Shown piece after piece: positions 15,054-21,683 of a stretch of DNA of 34,568 nt. The stretch is from a bacterium. Its GTDB lineage: Bacteria > Cyanobacteriota > Sericytochromatia > S15B-MN24 > VGJW01. The stretch spans positions 1 through 34,568 of the forward strand of contig JAJXWQ010000037.1 of NCBI GenBank assembly GCA_021781555.1. Direction: 5' to 3'. Below the pieces are notes generated by a model. It did no database searches, had not been told where the DNA came from, and saw only the letters and a list, made by a program, of their open reading frames with translations. Both the position numbers and the translations under genes were made by a program. Position 1 is the stretch's first letter. The number at the start of each line of letters is the position of its first letter.

Positions 15054-16505
15054 TTAGTTGGTGGCGACACCCAGGGCGTTGACCACGCCGCTTCCCGTGT
15101 AGGGGTTGTAACCGGACCCGATGGCGGTGCGACGGATGCGCTCGGCGATGGCCATGGGCGGTTCGGCGTGGGCGGCAATAGCGATCGCGGCGACACCGGA
15201 CGTGAAAGCGCTGGCCATGCTCGTGCCGGCCATGTAGGACCAGGGCGCCGGGCCCAGGGTGATCCCGTCGATCACGTGCGGGATCGCGTGGGTGCTCCAG
15301 GTCGAGAAGACCAGGTCGCGGGGGTCGACGATGACGGGCCCGGTCTGCGCGTTCCAGCCAACCCCACCACCCGGTGCGGCGACCTGCACCATGGGGCTGC
15401 CCCAGTTGCTGTAGCGGGCGAAGGCGTCGAAGTTCTTCTGGCCGACCGGACCGACCGCCGCAGCTCCCAGGACCAAAGGCAGGTCGGCGGGGATGTGCAC
15501 CCACCCCGAAGTCCGGTCTTCCTCCGAATCGTTGCCGACTCCGGCCACCACGAGGCTGCCGTTCATCGTGGCATAGCGGATGGCACGCTCGTAGGCCATC
15601 TCGGCATCCCCGGTACTGCCATCGCCCCACTGCAAGCGATCCTCGAGGCTGAGATTGATGACGTTGGCGTGGTGGTCGGCCGCATAGCGGATGCCCTCGA
15701 GGATGTCGAAGTCATCGCCGTAGGCATCCTTGTCGAGGACCTTGACGGACATGATCCTGGCCAGCGGCGCCACGCCGGCGACGCCGGTTCCGTTACGCGC
15801 CGCTGCGATGATGCCGGCGACGTGGCTGCCATGGCCGTTAAGGTCGGTCAGGTCCTCGCCGGGCACGAAGGAGCGCGAGTCGGCCAGATCCAGGTTGGGG
15901 GCCAGATTGGGGTTGTCGGCATCCACTCCGGTATCCAGCACGGCCACCGTGACGCCTTGACCCTGGTCTCCCGTGGCCCAGGCCTCTGGAGCCTGGACGA
16001 CGTTCAATCCCCACTCGAGGCTCTGGAACGGCTGCTGGTCCCCGACCGGTACCGGCGGGGGCGCGTCCTGCACGCGACCGGCCAGGATGTGCAAGCGCGG
16101 CCGCATCGGATCGCGGCTGACCTCCTCGACCCCTGGTTCTCCCGCGACGGCCGAGGGCGAAGCGTCTTCGACCGACGCGATACCGAGTCTCGGGTCGAAG
16201 CCTCGGACCTCCCCGCCAGCCGCCCGGACTCGAGCCTCGAACGATGCGAAGGCGACCCCTGGCTTCAGGACGACCAGCAACTGATTCGCCGTCGCTACCG
16301 TCAACCCGCCGCGGCTGTCGAGGGACTGACTCGATCTCGGATCGCCACCCGACAGCGTTTCCGGGGCAGCCCCGCGATCGCCGTTCGCGCGAGCAAGGCC
16401 CGCAGCTGTCGTTCCGGCGCCATCGGCGCCAGGGGCGTAGGGGGATGCGCACGCAGCGAGCGAGAGCGCGAGCACGAGCCCGCCGGATCTGAGCGTTCTG
16501 GCCAT
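15054..16505 (-). CDS. Lipoprotein subtilisin-like (S8) serine protease
   Basis: This is a 483-residue peptidase of family S8. A lipoprotein signal opens it: LVLALSLAACAS, with Cys19 as the likely lipidation site, so it is anchored outside the cytoplasm. A pro-region with an inhibitor-I9-like part (LLVVLKPGVAFASFEARVRA) runs to about residue 140. The catalytic triad is complete: Asp191 in VAVLDTGVD, His225 in NGHGSHVAGI and Ser429 in AGTSMASAF, with oxyanion Asn325 in AGVGND. ATG at 16505 follows GAGGAAAG. It is divergent from the peptide/radical SAM unit and could in principle process its product, but proteases of this type are common and no direct link is shown. Confidence 0.93.
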   Translation of the reverse strand: MARTLRSGGLVLALSLAACASPYAPGADGAGTTAAGLARANGDRGAAPETLSGGDPRSSQSLDSRGGLTVATANQLLVVLKPGVAFASFEARVRAAGGEVRGFDPRLGIASVEDASPSAVAGEPGVEEVSRDPMRPRLHILAGRVQDAPPPVPVGDQQPFQSLEWGLNVVQAPEAWATGDQGQGVTVAVLDTGVDADNPNLAPNLDLADSRSFVPGEDLTDLNGHGSHVAGIIAAARNGTGVAGVAPLARIMSVKVLDKDAYGDDFDILEGIRYAADHHANVINLSLEDRLQWGDGSTGDAEMAYERAIRYATMNGSLVVAGVGNDSEEDRTSGWVHIPADLPLVLGAAAVGPVGQKNFDAFARYSNWGSPMVQVAAPGGGVGWNAQTGPVIVDPRDLVFSTWSTHAIPHVIDGITLGPAPWSYMAGTSMASAFTSGVAAIAIAAHAEPPMAIAERIRRTAIGSGYNPYTGSGVVNALGVATN

Positions 16506-16653: not shown

Positions 16654-16873
16654 TCGTCAGAACATGGGCCTAGTGCGCGATATCTCGACTGGCTGGCAGG
16701 TACCGAGCAACGCTCGCTTGATTCTTTGGATATTTCATGATCTTTGCCAGGTCGCGCTCAGAATATTGAACAAGTGGCCGTATCCCTTGGCTATTCGATT
16801 GTTTTATCCGATTATTCGGGTAGGAGCCCAGTAGTAAGCACGCGGACCAGCCTCGTGCACGGAGGATCTAGAC

Positions 16874-17098
16874 ATGCTCATCAATTCGGAGATCCGCAAA
16901 TTCGTCGACCGGATCGCAGCGGACGACAGTCTCAAGCAACGCCTGGAAGGGGATTTCGACGGAGCCCTGGCGGGCGAGAACATCAAGCTGTCCCCACGCG
17001 ACAAAGATGCCCTGGAGGCCGCCCTGCACCTGATCCGCCAGCTCGGCAAGATGGGACAGGGAGCCACGGTCCTCGGTGGATGGGGCATCGGCTGCTGA
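16874..17098 (+). CDS. Nif11-like leader peptide, probable RiPP precursor
   Basis: This is a 74-residue peptide with a good ribosome site (GGAGG, 9 bases before ATG 16874). Residues 5-55 resemble the Nif11-type leader helix pair: EIRKFVDRIAADDSLKQRL, then a loop, then ENIKLSPRDKDALEAALHL. The last 15 residues change character: MGQGATVLGGWGIGC, Gly-rich with one Trp (70) and one Cys as the final residue (74). This leader/core layout, and the radical SAM gene that overlaps its 3' end, suggest a ribosomally made, post-translationally modified peptide. The cleavage point is unknown; LGG at 67-69 is a possible double-glycine-like site. No transporter or peptidase gene follows directly. Function of the product is unknown. 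Confidence 0.72.
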   Translation: MLINSEIRKFVDRIAADDSLKQRLEGDFDGALAGENIKLSPRDKDALEAALHLIRQLGKMGQGATVLGGWGIGC

Positions 17099-18168
17099 AC
17101 CCTGACACCCTGGCGACCGGCCGTTGCAGGACAACGGATCGGACGTCCGGGTCCGCGGGCGCGAGCCCCCCCGACGAGCGCGAGCCCCTGGTTCTCATGC
17201 TCGCGCTCACCAATGCCTGCAACCTCTCTTGCCGCCATTGCTACCGCCACCAGTCCGTAGCCTTCGGTGACGAGCTCAAGCCCGCGGAGATCTTCGGCGT
17301 CCTCGAGCAGTTCGCCGAACTCTGCGAGCGCGAAGACCACCGCGGTGCGGTCGTCTTCTCCGGGGGCGAGCCCCTGCTGCATCCTCACCTGGGCCTGGCG
17401 ATCCGCGTGGCGCGCGCCCTGGGTTTGCACGCCCGCGTGAACACGAGCGCGACGCTGGCGACCCCGGCCGTGGCGGAGGCCCTGGCGGGCTGGGGGCTGG
17501 AGGTAGCGCAGGTCAGCCTGGATGGAGCGGATCGCGTCACCCACGAGGCGGTCCGGGGGCCGCACACGTGGGAGCCGGCACGGCGCGGCATCTCGGCATT
17601 CCAGGCGGCCGGTATCACGGTCGAGCTCAAGGTGACACTGATCCGCGATCGCAACGACGCGGATCCGGTGGCCTTCATGCGTCTGGCCCGGCACTGGGAC
17701 GTGTCGATCGTCAGCTTCGCGCGGCTCATTGCGATCGGCTCGGGGTCGGGGTTTCCTGCCCATGATGCCGCCTCCTGGCGCGCCGTCCTCGAGGCCTTGG
17801 CCAGGGAGCGGGTCGCCGGGGTGATCGGCGACATCCGCGACTTCACCTTCGATCGCAGCTTCCTTCTGGGAGCGCCGCATCGGCTGGGGCCCGAGGAGGC
17901 CTTTCATGTCCTGGCGGTCGATGCTGACGGCACCTGTCTGGTATCGCGTCGACTCCCGATCCCGCTGGGAAACATCCGCTTCGAGCCCCTGGCTCGGATG
18001 TGGCACCATCCGCTGCTCGAGCGGATGCGAGGCGAGCAGTCGACCGGCAAGTGCCAGCGCTGCGACCTGCGGGAACTGTGCCGCGGTGGCAGTCGGGCGG
18101 CCGCCTGGGGCGGGTCCGAGGGGCTGAACCTGGCGCCGGATCCCGCGTGCTGGGTCGAGGTGCCATGA
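17080..18168 (+). CDS. Radical SAM/SPASM-type peptide maturase
   Basis: This is a 362-residue radical SAM enzyme. Cys47, 51 and 54 (CNLSCRHC) bind the [4Fe-4S]/SAM cluster, and FSGGEPLLHP is the SAM-binding GGE motif. The C-terminal part has a short SPASM/twitch-like set of Cys (286, 325, 328, 334, 357) around LGNIRFEPLARMWHHPLL, as in enzymes that modify peptides. No RiPP-recognition (PqqD-like) domain is visible before the barrel. ATG at 17080 lies inside the end of the peptide gene, an overlap of 19 bases in another frame; the ribosome site is poor, so translation is probably coupled. Its likely substrate is the upstream peptide, inferred from position only. The bond it forms is unknown. 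Confidence 0.87.
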   Translation: MGHRLLNPDTLATGRCRTTDRTSGSAGASPPDEREPLVLMLALTNACNLSCRHCYRHQSVAFGDELKPAEIFGVLEQFAELCEREDHRGAVVFSGGEPLLHPHLGLAIRVARALGLHARVNTSATLATPAVAEALAGWGLEVAQVSLDGADRVTHEAVRGPHTWEPARRGISAFQAAGITVELKVTLIRDRNDADPVAFMRLARHWDVSIVSFARLIAIGSGSGFPAHDAASWRAVLEALARERVAGVIGDIRDFTFDRSFLLGAPHRLGPEEAFHVLAVDADGTCLVSRRLPIPLGNIRFEPLARMWHHPLLERMRGEQSTGKCQRCDLRELCRGGSRAAAWGGSEGLNLAPDPACWVEVP

Positions 18169-19256
18169 GCGATTCCGCCGGGCTGGGCATCGAGATCGAG
18201 AATGCCTGGATCAAGTGTGTCCTCACCCGTTCGGCCGGCACACGAGCGCGCCAGTACTCCCTGGCGTTCGTTTCGAGCGGCGATCGCCGGGGCGATCTGG
18301 CGGTCGGCGTCGGCGAGGCCCTGGCTCGTTTCGAGCGGGAAGTCGGGATCCCGCTCGCCAGGGTCCCGACCGCGGTGGCGGCCAGCTGTCATTTCGCCTT
18401 TCCGACCTTCGGTCAGGCACACGACGCCGTGCTGCGGGTTCTCGACCGTCACCTGCCCGGGGCCCTTCTGGCCGCAGCGGATGGCCTCTACCCGCTCGAC
18501 CGCGTACCGGCCGCAGGAGGCTACCTGCGCTTCGTCCTGGGCCGCACGGTAGGCATCCGTGCGGTTGCCGAAGGCTTCAGCAACGCGCAGATCGCCGTCG
18601 ACTGCGGCTCTACCTCGACCGAGGTGGTGCGACTGGCCGCCGCGGCGGTCCCCGGGCATCAAAGCGATCCCGATCGAGATAGCCGCGAGCGGCTGCACGA
18701 CGGCAGGTTGACCTGGATCGGCGCGTTCGACACCCCCCTCGACTATGTGGCAAAGAGTGCCTGCGGCTACCCCCTGGTTCCGCGGATGGCCCGGATGCGC
18801 TCCATCTGGGCCATTGCGGAGCCTGCGGCTGGCCCGGCAAGAGCCAGTTGCGGCCCGCCTTCGGACGGGCCCGCGAGCGTTTCCGGGACCCGGGGACTGG
18901 CCGTCGCGACCCTCGAACTTCTCGGCGCGGAAGCGGCAAGGCGCGAACTTGCCCAGGCGGTGGGACTCGACGCCGAGGTACTCGGTGACGACGTCCAGCA
19001 CCTTGCGGACGAGCTTCGGTGCGCGGCCATCGCCACGCTGCGCGAGTCCTTCTTGAGGGTCATCGGATCCGGCGAGACGCCCCGGGAGGCAGCCGTGATG
19101 GGATGGGGCGCCCACCTGCTGGCCGAACCGGCTCTCTTGGCCCTGGGCGTCAAGCGCATTGCCGATGTCGAGGAGATCGCGGGAGTGCCACCCAACTTCG
19201 GCGCGGCCCTGGGCCTGGCGCTCGCGGCCAGCCGGCAGCGGGTCGCAAGCGGGTAG
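18165..19256 (+). CDS. Hydantoinase/MfnF-like ASKHA-fold protein
   Basis: This 363-residue protein overlaps the radical SAM stop by ATGA. It resembles the hydantoinase/oxoprolinase-type proteins annotated as H4MPT-linked C1-transfer or MfnF proteins. The second phosphate-binding motif is clear at residues 144-154 (AVDCGSTSTEV), then DGRLTWIGAFDTPLDYVAKS matches the family's GELVYTG-RTP stretch, and GWGAHLLAEPALLALGV the C-terminal adenosine-side motif. The first motif near the N-terminus is altered (LGIEIENAWIKCVL in place of the usual D-GG-N-K). No other methanopterin genes are in view, so in this setting it may serve the peptide pathway, for example as an ATP-dependent ligase or kinase-like step. 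That role is inference. Confidence 0.7.
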   Translation: MSDSAGLGIEIENAWIKCVLTRSAGTRARQYSLAFVSSGDRRGDLAVGVGEALARFEREVGIPLARVPTAVAASCHFAFPTFGQAHDAVLRVLDRHLPGALLAAADGLYPLDRVPAAGGYLRFVLGRTVGIRAVAEGFSNAQIAVDCGSTSTEVVRLAAAAVPGHQSDPDRDSRERLHDGRLTWIGAFDTPLDYVAKSACGYPLVPRMARMRSIWAIAEPAAGPARASCGPPSDGPASVSGTRGLAVATLELLGAEAARRELAQAVGLDAEVLGDDVQHLADELRCAAIATLRESFLRVIGSGETPREAAVMGWGAHLLAEPALLALGVKRIADVEEIAGVPPNFGAALGLALAASRQRVASG

Positions 19257-19285: not shown

Positions 19286-19339
19286 CCTGGCGCCGCCTGG
19301 CCGGGCCAGATGTCGCCAGGAGGGCCGATCCTCGGCCCT
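19286..19339. terminator. Hairpin cluster between convergent genes
   Basis: CCTGGCG (19286-19292) pairs with CGCCAGG (19314-19320) around an inner CTGGCC/GGCCAG, and AGGGCCGA-TCC-TCGGCCCT (19321-19339) is a perfect 8-base stem overlapping the phosphatase stop. T7 at 19278-19284 lies on the left. It may end both convergent transcripts, but the T-run is not in the canonical place. Confidence 0.45.
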
Positions 19340-21683
19340 ACTGCCGCTTGAGGGTGAGCAAGGTCAGGTCGTCGAAGGGCTCGGCTCCGCCCGAGAACTC
19401 CGAGATCACACGCAGGATCTCGGCGTGCGCCCGGTCAGGCGAAAGCTCCCAGCACCGATCGACCGCTTCGCTGAGCCGCTCGCTGCCGAAGTGCTCCTCG
19501 CGTGGGTTCATGGCGTCCTCGACGCCGTCCGAATAGATCATGAGCCCCTCGCCAGGCTCCAGCCGGTGGTGGTGCTCCTCGTACTGCGATCCGGAGACGA
19601 CGCCCAGTGCCATGCCCCGGGCGACCAGCGGCCCGCCGGGAGTCAGGGGAAACGGCTGGCCCGCGTTGGCATAGGTGAACGACCCGGAGATGCGATCGAG
19701 CACGCTGTAGAAGGCCGTGACGAACATCTTGCGGGAGGGGCGGTTGAGCCAGATCAGCTCGTTGGCCTGGGCGAGCACGGCCGCGGGCGACCGGTTGCCC
19801 TTGGCCAGCGAGCGGAAGACCATCACCGTCATGGCCATCAACAGGGCCGCAGGCACGCCCTTGCCGGCCACGTCCCCGACCAGGATCGCCAGGCGGTCGT
19901 CGCCGATGTCGATCACGTCGTAGAAGTCTCCCCCGACCTCGAGGGCGGGGTGGGTGCAGGCTGCGATCGCCAGGCCCGGCACCTCCGGCAGGCGCTGCGG
20001 CAGGAATCCGCTCTGCACCTCGCGGGCGATCTCGAGCTCGCGCCGGATTCGCTCCTGGCTGGCCACCTGTGCGAACAGAGCCGAGTTCTCGAGCCACAGG
20101 GCGAGCTGGCTCGACAAGCTGGCAACCAGCTCCCGATCCTCCGGCTTGTAGGGCTGGTCCGAGCGGCGGGGACCCAGCATGGCCAGCCCGGAATCCTCTT
20201 TCATGGCGATCGGCACGCGCAGCGCCGGAAACTCGGGCGGCTCGCCATGGCGGAGATGGAGCTCCCCGCCGTCTTGCAGGTACACGGCGATGGCCTGCGG
20301 GTGAAGGGCGCCGTCGATGGCTGCTGCGTAAGCGGCAAACAGCTCGTAAGGATCGAGGGTCTTGCGGGCACGCTCACCGAAATCAGCTAGCACCCGCCCC
20401 AGATCGTAGCCCTCGCGGAAGAACAGCCGATCGACCGTGATCTTCGTGCGGTCGCGCAGAGGGGCGAAGGCGAGCGCCACGGCCGCCGTTGCCAGGACGT
20501 TGGCCCAGCGGGCATTCTGCTGGCCCCAAAGGGACAGCAGGCCGGCCGTCGTGCCGAAGTAGAAGGTACCCAGCGCCGCCGTGACGAGGGCATACACGAG
20601 CGTCCGCTTGACGGCGATCTCGACGTCGAAGAGCCGCCAGCGAACGATGGCGTAGGCCAGAGAGAACGGGAACAGGAGCGTCAGCAGGTAGGCCGACGAG
20701 CTTCCCGGGATGGAGATGTCGGCGAAGGCCGCCATGGTCACGACCAGGGTCGGTACGATGCCCGCGATGGCTCCGGCGAGCACGATCGTGCCCTGAGCGC
20801 GCTCGGAAGCCGACGAGCGGGGATGGATGCAGGCCACTGCAGCCGCCACGGGAATGGCCAGCAGGCCGAGACCGACCAGCAGAGTATCGGCGAGGTAGAC
20901 GGGCTTCCAGAGAACGGGCTGGCGGTAAAAGACCAGGGTCAAGCCCGCCAGGGCCACGCCGGGCCACAGAGGAAGCGACGCCAGAGCCGGCCAGCGTCTG
21001 ACCCATCTTGGTGTCACGGGCATGCGCAAGGCCAGCAACCCGGCCGTCGGCCCCACGAAGGCGAGCGACAGGATGTTCACCCACGAGAACAGGTGCGTCG
21101 TGACGCTCTCGAAATTGGTCAGGGAGAAGACCGCGAAGGTCGCACAGAACCACAGGAAGGCTCGGGAGTCGGCTTCGTGCGGTCGCAATGCCTGCACGAT
21201 CGCTCCGAGTCCGAGGAACACCAGTCCCAGCACCCACCACATCACGAACATCGTGAAGACATCCACGGCCGTGAAATTCTCGAGCGGGATCCGCAGCGAC
21301 AGCAGGCGGCCCTCGCGGTCGATGCCGTAACGGACGATGGTTGCGTGGGCCAGGTGACCAACCGCGGCAGCGAAGGCCGCGGGCGTGGCGACCGGCTGCC
21401 CGTCCACCGTGCGGACCTCGTCCCCGACCTGGATCCCGGCCTGGAAGCCCGCCCACTGCTCGCTGTAGACCGAGGTCACGGTCATGTTCTTCTCGAGCAA
21501 GAAGCCGGGGAAGGGCTTGCCGAACCACGAAAGCGCCAGGAGGAGGGTGACGACCGCCAGTACCGTGCCTCCCACCAGGAGCGGCAACGCGATCTGGCCC
21601 CGAGCCTTGCGGACGTCCAGGACGACCTGCGGCATCAACCCTTTCTCGAGCCGGTCGGCTACCGGATCCGCCTGGCGCTGCAT
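19338..21683 (-). CDS. PDZ-membrane-GAF-SpoIIE (PP2C) phosphatase
   Basis: This is a 781-residue signalling phosphatase. Order: a membrane helix (residues 30-52), a PDZ-like extracytoplasmic domain (MTVTSVYSEQWAGFQAGIQVG with DEVRTVDGQPV), about eight membrane helices (residues 135-400), a GAF-like domain (about 430-540), a short coiled linker with REVQSGFLPQRLP, and a C-terminal SpoIIE/PP2C domain. The metal-binding acids are in GGDFYDVIDI, LVGDVAGKGVPAALL, YSDGVEDAMNP and FDDLTLLTL. Such proteins dephosphorylate STAS anti-sigma-factor antagonists in response to a membrane or periplasmic signal. A STAS gene sits divergently next door, which supports that role. The ATG lacks a clear ribosome site. 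Confidence 0.9.
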   Translation of the reverse strand: MQRQADPVADRLEKGLMPQVVLDVRKARGQIALPLLVGGTVLAVVTLLLALSWFGKPFPGFLLEKNMTVTSVYSEQWAGFQAGIQVGDEVRTVDGQPVATPAAFAAAVGHLAHATIVRYGIDREGRLLSLRIPLENFTAVDVFTMFVMWWVLGLVFLGLGAIVQALRPHEADSRAFLWFCATFAVFSLTNFESVTTHLFSWVNILSLAFVGPTAGLLALRMPVTPRWVRRWPALASLPLWPGVALAGLTLVFYRQPVLWKPVYLADTLLVGLGLLAIPVAAAVACIHPRSSASERAQGTIVLAGAIAGIVPTLVVTMAAFADISIPGSSSAYLLTLLFPFSLAYAIVRWRLFDVEIAVKRTLVYALVTAALGTFYFGTTAGLLSLWGQQNARWANVLATAAVALAFAPLRDRTKITVDRLFFREGYDLGRVLADFGERARKTLDPYELFAAYAAAIDGALHPQAIAVYLQDGGELHLRHGEPPEFPALRVPIAMKEDSGLAMLGPRRSDQPYKPEDRELVASLSSQLALWLENSALFAQVASQERIRRELEIAREVQSGFLPQRLPEVPGLAIAACTHPALEVGGDFYDVIDIGDDRLAILVGDVAGKGVPAALLMAMTVMVFRSLAKGNRSPAAVLAQANELIWLNRPSRKMFVTAFYSVLDRISGSFTYANAGQPFPLTPGGPLVARGMALGVVSGSQYEEHHHRLEPGEGLMIYSDGVEDAMNPREEHFGSERLSEAVDRCWELSPDRAHAEILRVISEFSGGAEPFDDLTLLTLKRQ

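Follow-up and report, generated by a model that had tools for sequence, protein, structure and literature searches.

A possible unrecognised peptide-maturation system pairing a radical SAM enzyme with an MfnF-like ASKHA protein in non-photosynthetic cyanobacteria

Three adjoining genes in a Sericytochromatia-type (non-photosynthetic) cyanobacterium, encoding a short precursor-like peptide, a radical SAM/SPASM enzyme (rSAM) and an ASKHA-fold protein, raise the question of whether they jointly make a peptide-derived product and, if so, by what chemistry. RiPPs modified by rSAM enzymes and NHLP leaders are both well known; MfnF-type ASKHA proteins, to our knowledge, have been assigned a role only in the building of a one-carbon cofactor. 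Sequence comparisons point, on balance, to a RiPP-type peptide-maturation operon in which the rSAM would act on a C-terminal cysteine and the ASKHA protein would then add a group, and it is possible that the system represents an unrecognised peptide-maturation class, as proposed in an earlier note on this DNA.

Gene layout and recurrence of the triad

The analysed stretch of DNA, here termed the window, is a complete contig of 34,568 nucleotides (C48 of genome G000). The three open reading frames lie on the same strand as that note described, with an overlap of 19 bases between the peptide and rSAM genes and an ATGA overlap between the rSAM and ASKHA genes (16874-19256; Table 1). In the triads, the peptide genes carry a GGAGG-like, purine-rich stretch directly 5' of the start codon. 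The sequence upstream of the peptide gene in the window (16740-16880) is strongly conserved relative to G001, a genome of the same genus, and may hold a promoter site.

Table 1 Genes of the triad and their conserved neighbours in the window.
Feature	Position	Strand	Remarks
Precursor-like peptide, 74 aa	16874..17098	+	Start ATG, ribosome-binding-like GGAGG upstream; NHLP/Os1348-like
Radical SAM/SPASM enzyme (rSAM), 362 aa	17080..18168	+	ATG at 17080; CxxxCxxC, auxiliary-II ligands
ASKHA-fold protein, 363 aa	18165..19256	+	Distantly related to MfnF/TIGR03123 (methanofuran-type ether synthase)
Divergent S8 subtilase, lipoprotein-like signal	15054..16505	-	Conserved neighbour of the triad
Membrane PDZ/SpoIIE-type phosphatase	19338..21683	-	Convergent to the triad; conserved neighbour

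The triad occurs in identical order in five genomes (that of the window, G002, G004, G006 and G009) from one order of Sericytochromatia-type cyanobacteria, and the co-occurrence in relatives that the earlier note had proposed as a check is thus borne out. Relative to the window, the other four triads share 31–46% identity in the peptide, 42–56% in the rSAM and 29–45% in the ASKHA protein, and recurrence of the gene order at this level of divergence indicates that the arrangement is not due to chance. The apparent absence of the triad from G001 (86% complete) is explained by the end of contig C361, which covers the S8 subtilase gene, the conserved upstream region and about 30 bases of the peptide gene before breaking off. 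A strict-pattern scan of wider genome contigs returned true relatives only in G004 and G009, both already in the set, while the other 43 matches were ~22–37% identical and the 12 of them placed in the rSAM tree all fell outside the clade described below.

Within the phylum, the rSAM and ASKHA genes are restricted to the class, each being found in 13 of the 18 genomes of the class comparison set and in none of 368 others, the rSAM count taking in G001, where only a paralogue of a separate group (group C, below) is present. Neither a triad-type rSAM nor an ASKHA gene was found in G003, G007 or G008. Both are present but apart in G005 (rSAM on C214, ASKHA on C247), and the two genes also lie apart in the genomes of a second family (f6). 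Co-occurrence of rSAM and ASKHA genes across the 18 genomes was of modest significance (one-sided Fisher p = 0.02, relatedness ignored), with p = 0.05 in the same test when G001 was omitted or when the more complete genomes alone were used. As the ASKHA gene sits elsewhere in the genomes of more distant relatives, it is a weaker partner of the system than the rSAM.

The S8 subtilase gene lies ahead of the triad in the window, G002, G006 and G009, is also present in G001, G004 and G005, and was not found in G003, G007, G008 or G010; the enzyme may be a leader protease, or its position may reflect plain synteny. The PDZ/SpoIIE phosphatase gene follows the triad, in convergent orientation, in the window, G006 and G009. 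Within the triad itself, neither an RRE domain nor an exporter was recognised.

These distributions bear on an alternative in which the peptide and the rSAM form a RiPP pair and the ASKHA gene is a co-transcribed, class-specific housekeeping or signalling gene. In keeping with such a role, the ASKHA gene is linked to Ser/Thr-kinase genes in two f6 genomes (G011 and G013) and in G005 stands beside the PDZ/SpoIIE gene without the rSAM. However, the gene order is kept across five divergent genomes, and the rSAM and ASKHA genes are both confined to the class and both missing from the same three genomes, so that a bystander role for the ASKHA protein is unlikely.

Putative precursors with a terminal cysteine

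The window peptide consists of a helical, NHLP/Os1348-like N-terminal domain (approximately residues 3–55) followed by a disordered tail ending in GGWGIGC, and AlphaFold2 predicted four helices with a low-confidence tail at residues 61–74. In an alignment of six copies the N-terminal domain is conserved, while the tails (GGWGIGC, GGSIGC, AGWGIGC, GGATPAC, VADDC and VADDC) are variable and share only the terminal cysteine (6/6). A conserved peptide C-terminus beside the rSAM, as the earlier note had anticipated, is therefore present in every triad, with the last cysteine as the sole invariant residue of the tail. The locus shows the general features of a RiPP system, namely a precursor gene adjoining a maturase gene, a conserved leader and a variable core.

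The NF038399 model (Os1348, NHLP clan) matched the leader of all six peptides (best E = 1.4e-6), with the window copy scoring 19 bits against a curated cut-off of 40 bits. The leader had been described in the earlier note as Nif11-like, a description that gives way to NHLP/Os1348: the Nif11 leader model (PF07862) matched two of the six peptides weakly (best E = 0.15) and the window copy not at all, and Nif11 membership was rejected. No Foldseek match to the peptide was individually significant (E above 1), and most of those listed were RiPP precursors (SonA, Os1348 and a proteusin). The triad peptides thus resemble precursors of the Os1348/NHLP clan, whose leaders are related to those of proteusins and borosins, in leader coverage and helical domain, but differ in that the window copy lies below the family cut-off. 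In place of the rSAM plus ASKHA combination of the triad, the Os1348 cluster (Os1349-Os1351) has genes for an acetyltransferase, a protein of HEXXH type and one resembling SagB (PMC7726476).

A hairpin rich in G+C, with T-rich sequence after it, was noted by eye, and folds were computed, between the peptide and rSAM genes of G004, G006 and G009; a terminator scan lists this hairpin in G006 only, and at other places such scans gave matches no more frequent than in shuffled sequence. Such a terminator-like structure behind the peptide gene is as expected if the precursor exceeds the enzyme. In addition, G009 carries a second, stand-alone precursor copy (L148:7563-7775), counted among the six aligned peptides, with a nearly identical tail, suggesting that modification may occur in trans.

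A second type of putative precursor accompanies homologous rSAM genes in the f6 genomes. In G011, G012, G013 and G014, the gene directly before the rSAM encodes a protein of 171–187 aa that is unrelated to the triad peptide and ends in DDPGC, GGPGC or GC (in G014 the four residues preceding GC were unread). A terminal cysteine occurs in only 1 of 165 long open reading frames of these loci. That two unrelated rSAM partners share the same C-terminal end points to the terminal cysteine as the site of action. We are fairly confident that the peptide is the substrate of the rSAM, and the terminal cysteine is probably the residue that is modified. No convincing NHLP-type peptide was found in G005 or the f6 genomes, no cysteine-ending precursor was found in the neighbourhood of the G005 rSAM, and no cysteine-ending neighbour was found for the rSAM homologues of a further family, f7 (G015 and G017). 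Upstream of the cysteine-ending protein and rSAM in f6 (L100:3052-5985, L103, L105 and L106) lies a gene for a large protein, which in G011 is ~980 aa long and has a weak match to a zinc metallopeptidase family (Peptidase_Mx1, HELGH).

Alternatively, the small protein could be a carrier whose terminal cysteine thiol holds a substrate, with the rSAM and ASKHA protein building a small cofactor upon it. A cysteine at the extreme C-terminus, behind a tail that otherwise varies, would suit thiol-carrier schemes, as would the GC end borne in f6 by a quite different protein, and MfnF-type enzymes do produce cofactors. Nevertheless, the helical domain resembles RiPP leaders and the terminator-like hairpin 3' of the peptide gene suggests surplus peptide, and we consider a carrier role improbable.

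The radical SAM enzyme and its proposed reaction

In agreement with the earlier note, the second protein of the triad was recognised as a radical SAM/SPASM enzyme (Pfam Radical_SAM, PF04055, E = 4e-23; SPASM, E = 1e-4), with a CxxxCxxC motif in which C47, C51 and C54 are invariant. The window enzyme also retains the auxiliary-II ligands (C325, C328, C334 and C357), a set present in all clade enzymes compared. By alignment column counts, the auxiliary-I cysteines are lost in the five triad enzymes and kept in G005, f6 and group C; the f7 enzymes also have no auxiliary I. A full SPASM domain with two auxiliary clusters (7–8 cysteines) was rejected for the triad enzymes, in which the auxiliary-II cysteines alone are present, and these would be better named single-auxiliary-cluster (Twitch-like) enzymes.

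In the phylogenetic tree, the triad enzymes together with those of G005, f6/f7 and group C formed one clade (99/98), within which the triad and G005 enzymes grouped together (98/94). The group C paralogues (G000:C14:1676-2662, G001:C14:3208-4206 and G002:C130:14105-15088) carry the full cysteine set and adjoin a gene of another kind; neither an NHLP-type peptide nor an ASKHA match was found beside them, and the gene directly upstream of the G002 copy encodes no terminal cysteine.

Compared with described families, the window rSAM fell below every NCBIfam equivalog cut-off, its best matches being TIGR04053, AhbD, NirJ, AhbC, GeoRSP, MftC and ACGX. It matched the small-peptide rSAM/SPASM systems ACGX, SbtM/GeoRSP and SynChlorMet at E values of 1e-28 to 1e-20, but far below all of their cut-offs, and we know of no ASKHA partner recorded for these systems, judged by family names. 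The MftC model (TIGR03962) matched all five rSAMs (best E = 4e-43), with the window enzyme scoring 86.5 against a cut-off of 265 bits and so remaining under it. Like mycofactocin (MftA/MftC), the triad combines a short precursor with a SPASM-type rSAM for which the C-terminal residue is the proposed target. Unlike mycofactocin, that residue is Cys rather than Tyr, the leader is of NHLP type, the auxiliary-I ligands are absent and the triad includes no homologue of MftB, MftD, MftE or MftF. Similarly, the haem-related enzymes AhbD, NirJ and AhbC, along with TIGR04053, share the C-terminal auxiliary-II motif GKCxxC...C...DPxCW, and the loss of auxiliary I has a parallel in some AhbDs (PMC10452713, from which the AhbD ligand assignments were taken), but the triad differs from these families in its adjacent NHLP peptide, and the window enzyme reaches none of their equivalog cut-offs. 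AhbD catalyses the oxidative removal of carboxyl groups (PMC10452713).

We propose that the leader domain would dock the peptide on the rSAM, whose 5'-deoxyadenosyl radical would attack the C-terminal cysteine, while the sole remaining auxiliary cluster would pass an electron onward. By analogy with MftC, which acts on the Tyr that ends MftA, and with AhbD, which acts on haem propionates, oxidative decarboxylation of the terminal cysteine, yielding a C-terminal enethiol-type end, is tentatively put forward as the favoured reaction.

A different use of the same residue, in which the rSAM would cross-link the terminal cysteine sulfur to the carbon of a core residue to form a thioether, as in sactipeptides or ranthipeptides, with the ASKHA protein acting later, has little probability. 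Thioether-making SPASM peptide maturases do occur among the related families, and a single invariant cysteine is what the peptide offers; however, the triad enzymes are without any auxiliary-I ligands, the site implicated in substrate binding by ranthipeptide enzymes, no acceptor residue is conserved in tails that range from GGWGIGC to VADDC, and such links do not need a fixed terminal position.

The ASKHA protein and the possible product

The third protein had been called MfnF-like in the earlier note, and both its sequence profile and its predicted fold support that description. The window protein matched TIGR03123 (E = 5e-7) and MfnF (NF040623; E = 0.002, 17 bits against a cut-off of 520), both far under the curated cut-offs, and among its homologues in the class TIGR03123 matched 14/14 (best E = 1.4e-21) and MfnF 13/14 (best E = 2e-13). 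Its AlphaFold2 model (pLDDT 87) was closest to the structures 3cet and 3c0b, with 3cet as the best Foldseek match (E = 8e-14, TM 0.65–0.70), and the ASKHA sequence profile retrieved 3c0b, which is itself MfnF-type (E = 3e-18). The protein shares with MfnF/TIGR03123 the fold, a nucleotide-binding motif (D-x-G-S/T-T/S-S-T) and an RL..G.L.W.G...TP block, but differs in its ~15% identity to 3c0b, its scores below both cut-offs, the lack of MfnB in its genome and its position adjoining a peptide and an rSAM gene. Consistent with the earlier note, which knew of no peptide pathway with such a partner, a literature search covering few subscription papers found none that gives a peptide pathway an ASKHA partner of MfnF-like or hydantoinase type.

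It is very improbable that the ASKHA protein works outside the peptide system and merely carries out the MfnF reaction of normal methanofuran or methylofuran synthesis. Its profile and fold match to MfnF and its separation from the rSAM in f6 would allow such a role. Against it stand the position of its gene, which in the triads of the window, G002, G006 and G009 starts within a few bases of the end of the rSAM gene, and the absence of MfnB (PF04476), required for the furan, from all 18 class genomes, when control methanogens score. As MfnB is absent from the class, methanofuran is not a likely product, and the methanofuran/H4MPT explanation of the protein was rejected.

The chemistry of MfnF nevertheless indicates what an ASKHA protein might contribute to the favoured pathway. 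MfnF joins a furan diphosphate to the phenol of tyramine or Glu-Tyr, and in methylofuran synthesis a Glu-Tyr dipeptide is presumably the substrate of an MfnF homologue (PMC8141765). In the proposed peptide pathway, the ASKHA protein would draw on ATP or, like MfnF, on an activated diphosphate to attach a group to the exposed end of the peptide, or to transfer one there, most simply to the sulfur; the chances that it acts on the product of the rSAM appear to be even. The final product would then be released by a protease, for which the S8 subtilase next to the triad is a candidate. Dedicated genes for export or immunity are not conserved in the cluster, and for that reason the pathway may yield a small redox cofactor, a metallophore or a signal and not an antibiotic.

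More broadly, and with some hesitation, the two precursor types might be taken to mark a new class, in which mutually unrelated precursors distinguished by a C-terminal (Gly-)Cys alone would be modified by a dedicated rSAM (of the single-auxiliary-cluster kind in the triads) and an MfnF-like ASKHA protein would join an activated group to give a peptide-derived cofactor. If the ASKHA protein does act on a ribosomal peptide, it would be a new kind of tailoring enzyme for RiPP pathways. If the rSAM needs little beyond a C-terminal cysteine, as the two precursor types suggest, this would give a simple rule for finding such systems, and recognition of that residue might offer a tool for C-terminal protein labelling. 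In addition, the system would offer an early entry point to the special metabolism of these uncultured cyanobacterial relatives.

Other ASKHA genes of the class lie in varied surroundings. In G011 and G013 (L021:6951-11497 and L019:5574-10165), the ASKHA gene lies between gamma-glutamyltransferase-like and Ser/Thr kinase-like genes, with a polyketide-synthase-like gene next to them. A second, more degenerate ASKHA paralogue occurs in f6 near a sigma-70 factor gene (L151:6037-7173 and L152:2463-3602), with its nucleotide-binding motif altered to DVGSRETH or DVGARETH.
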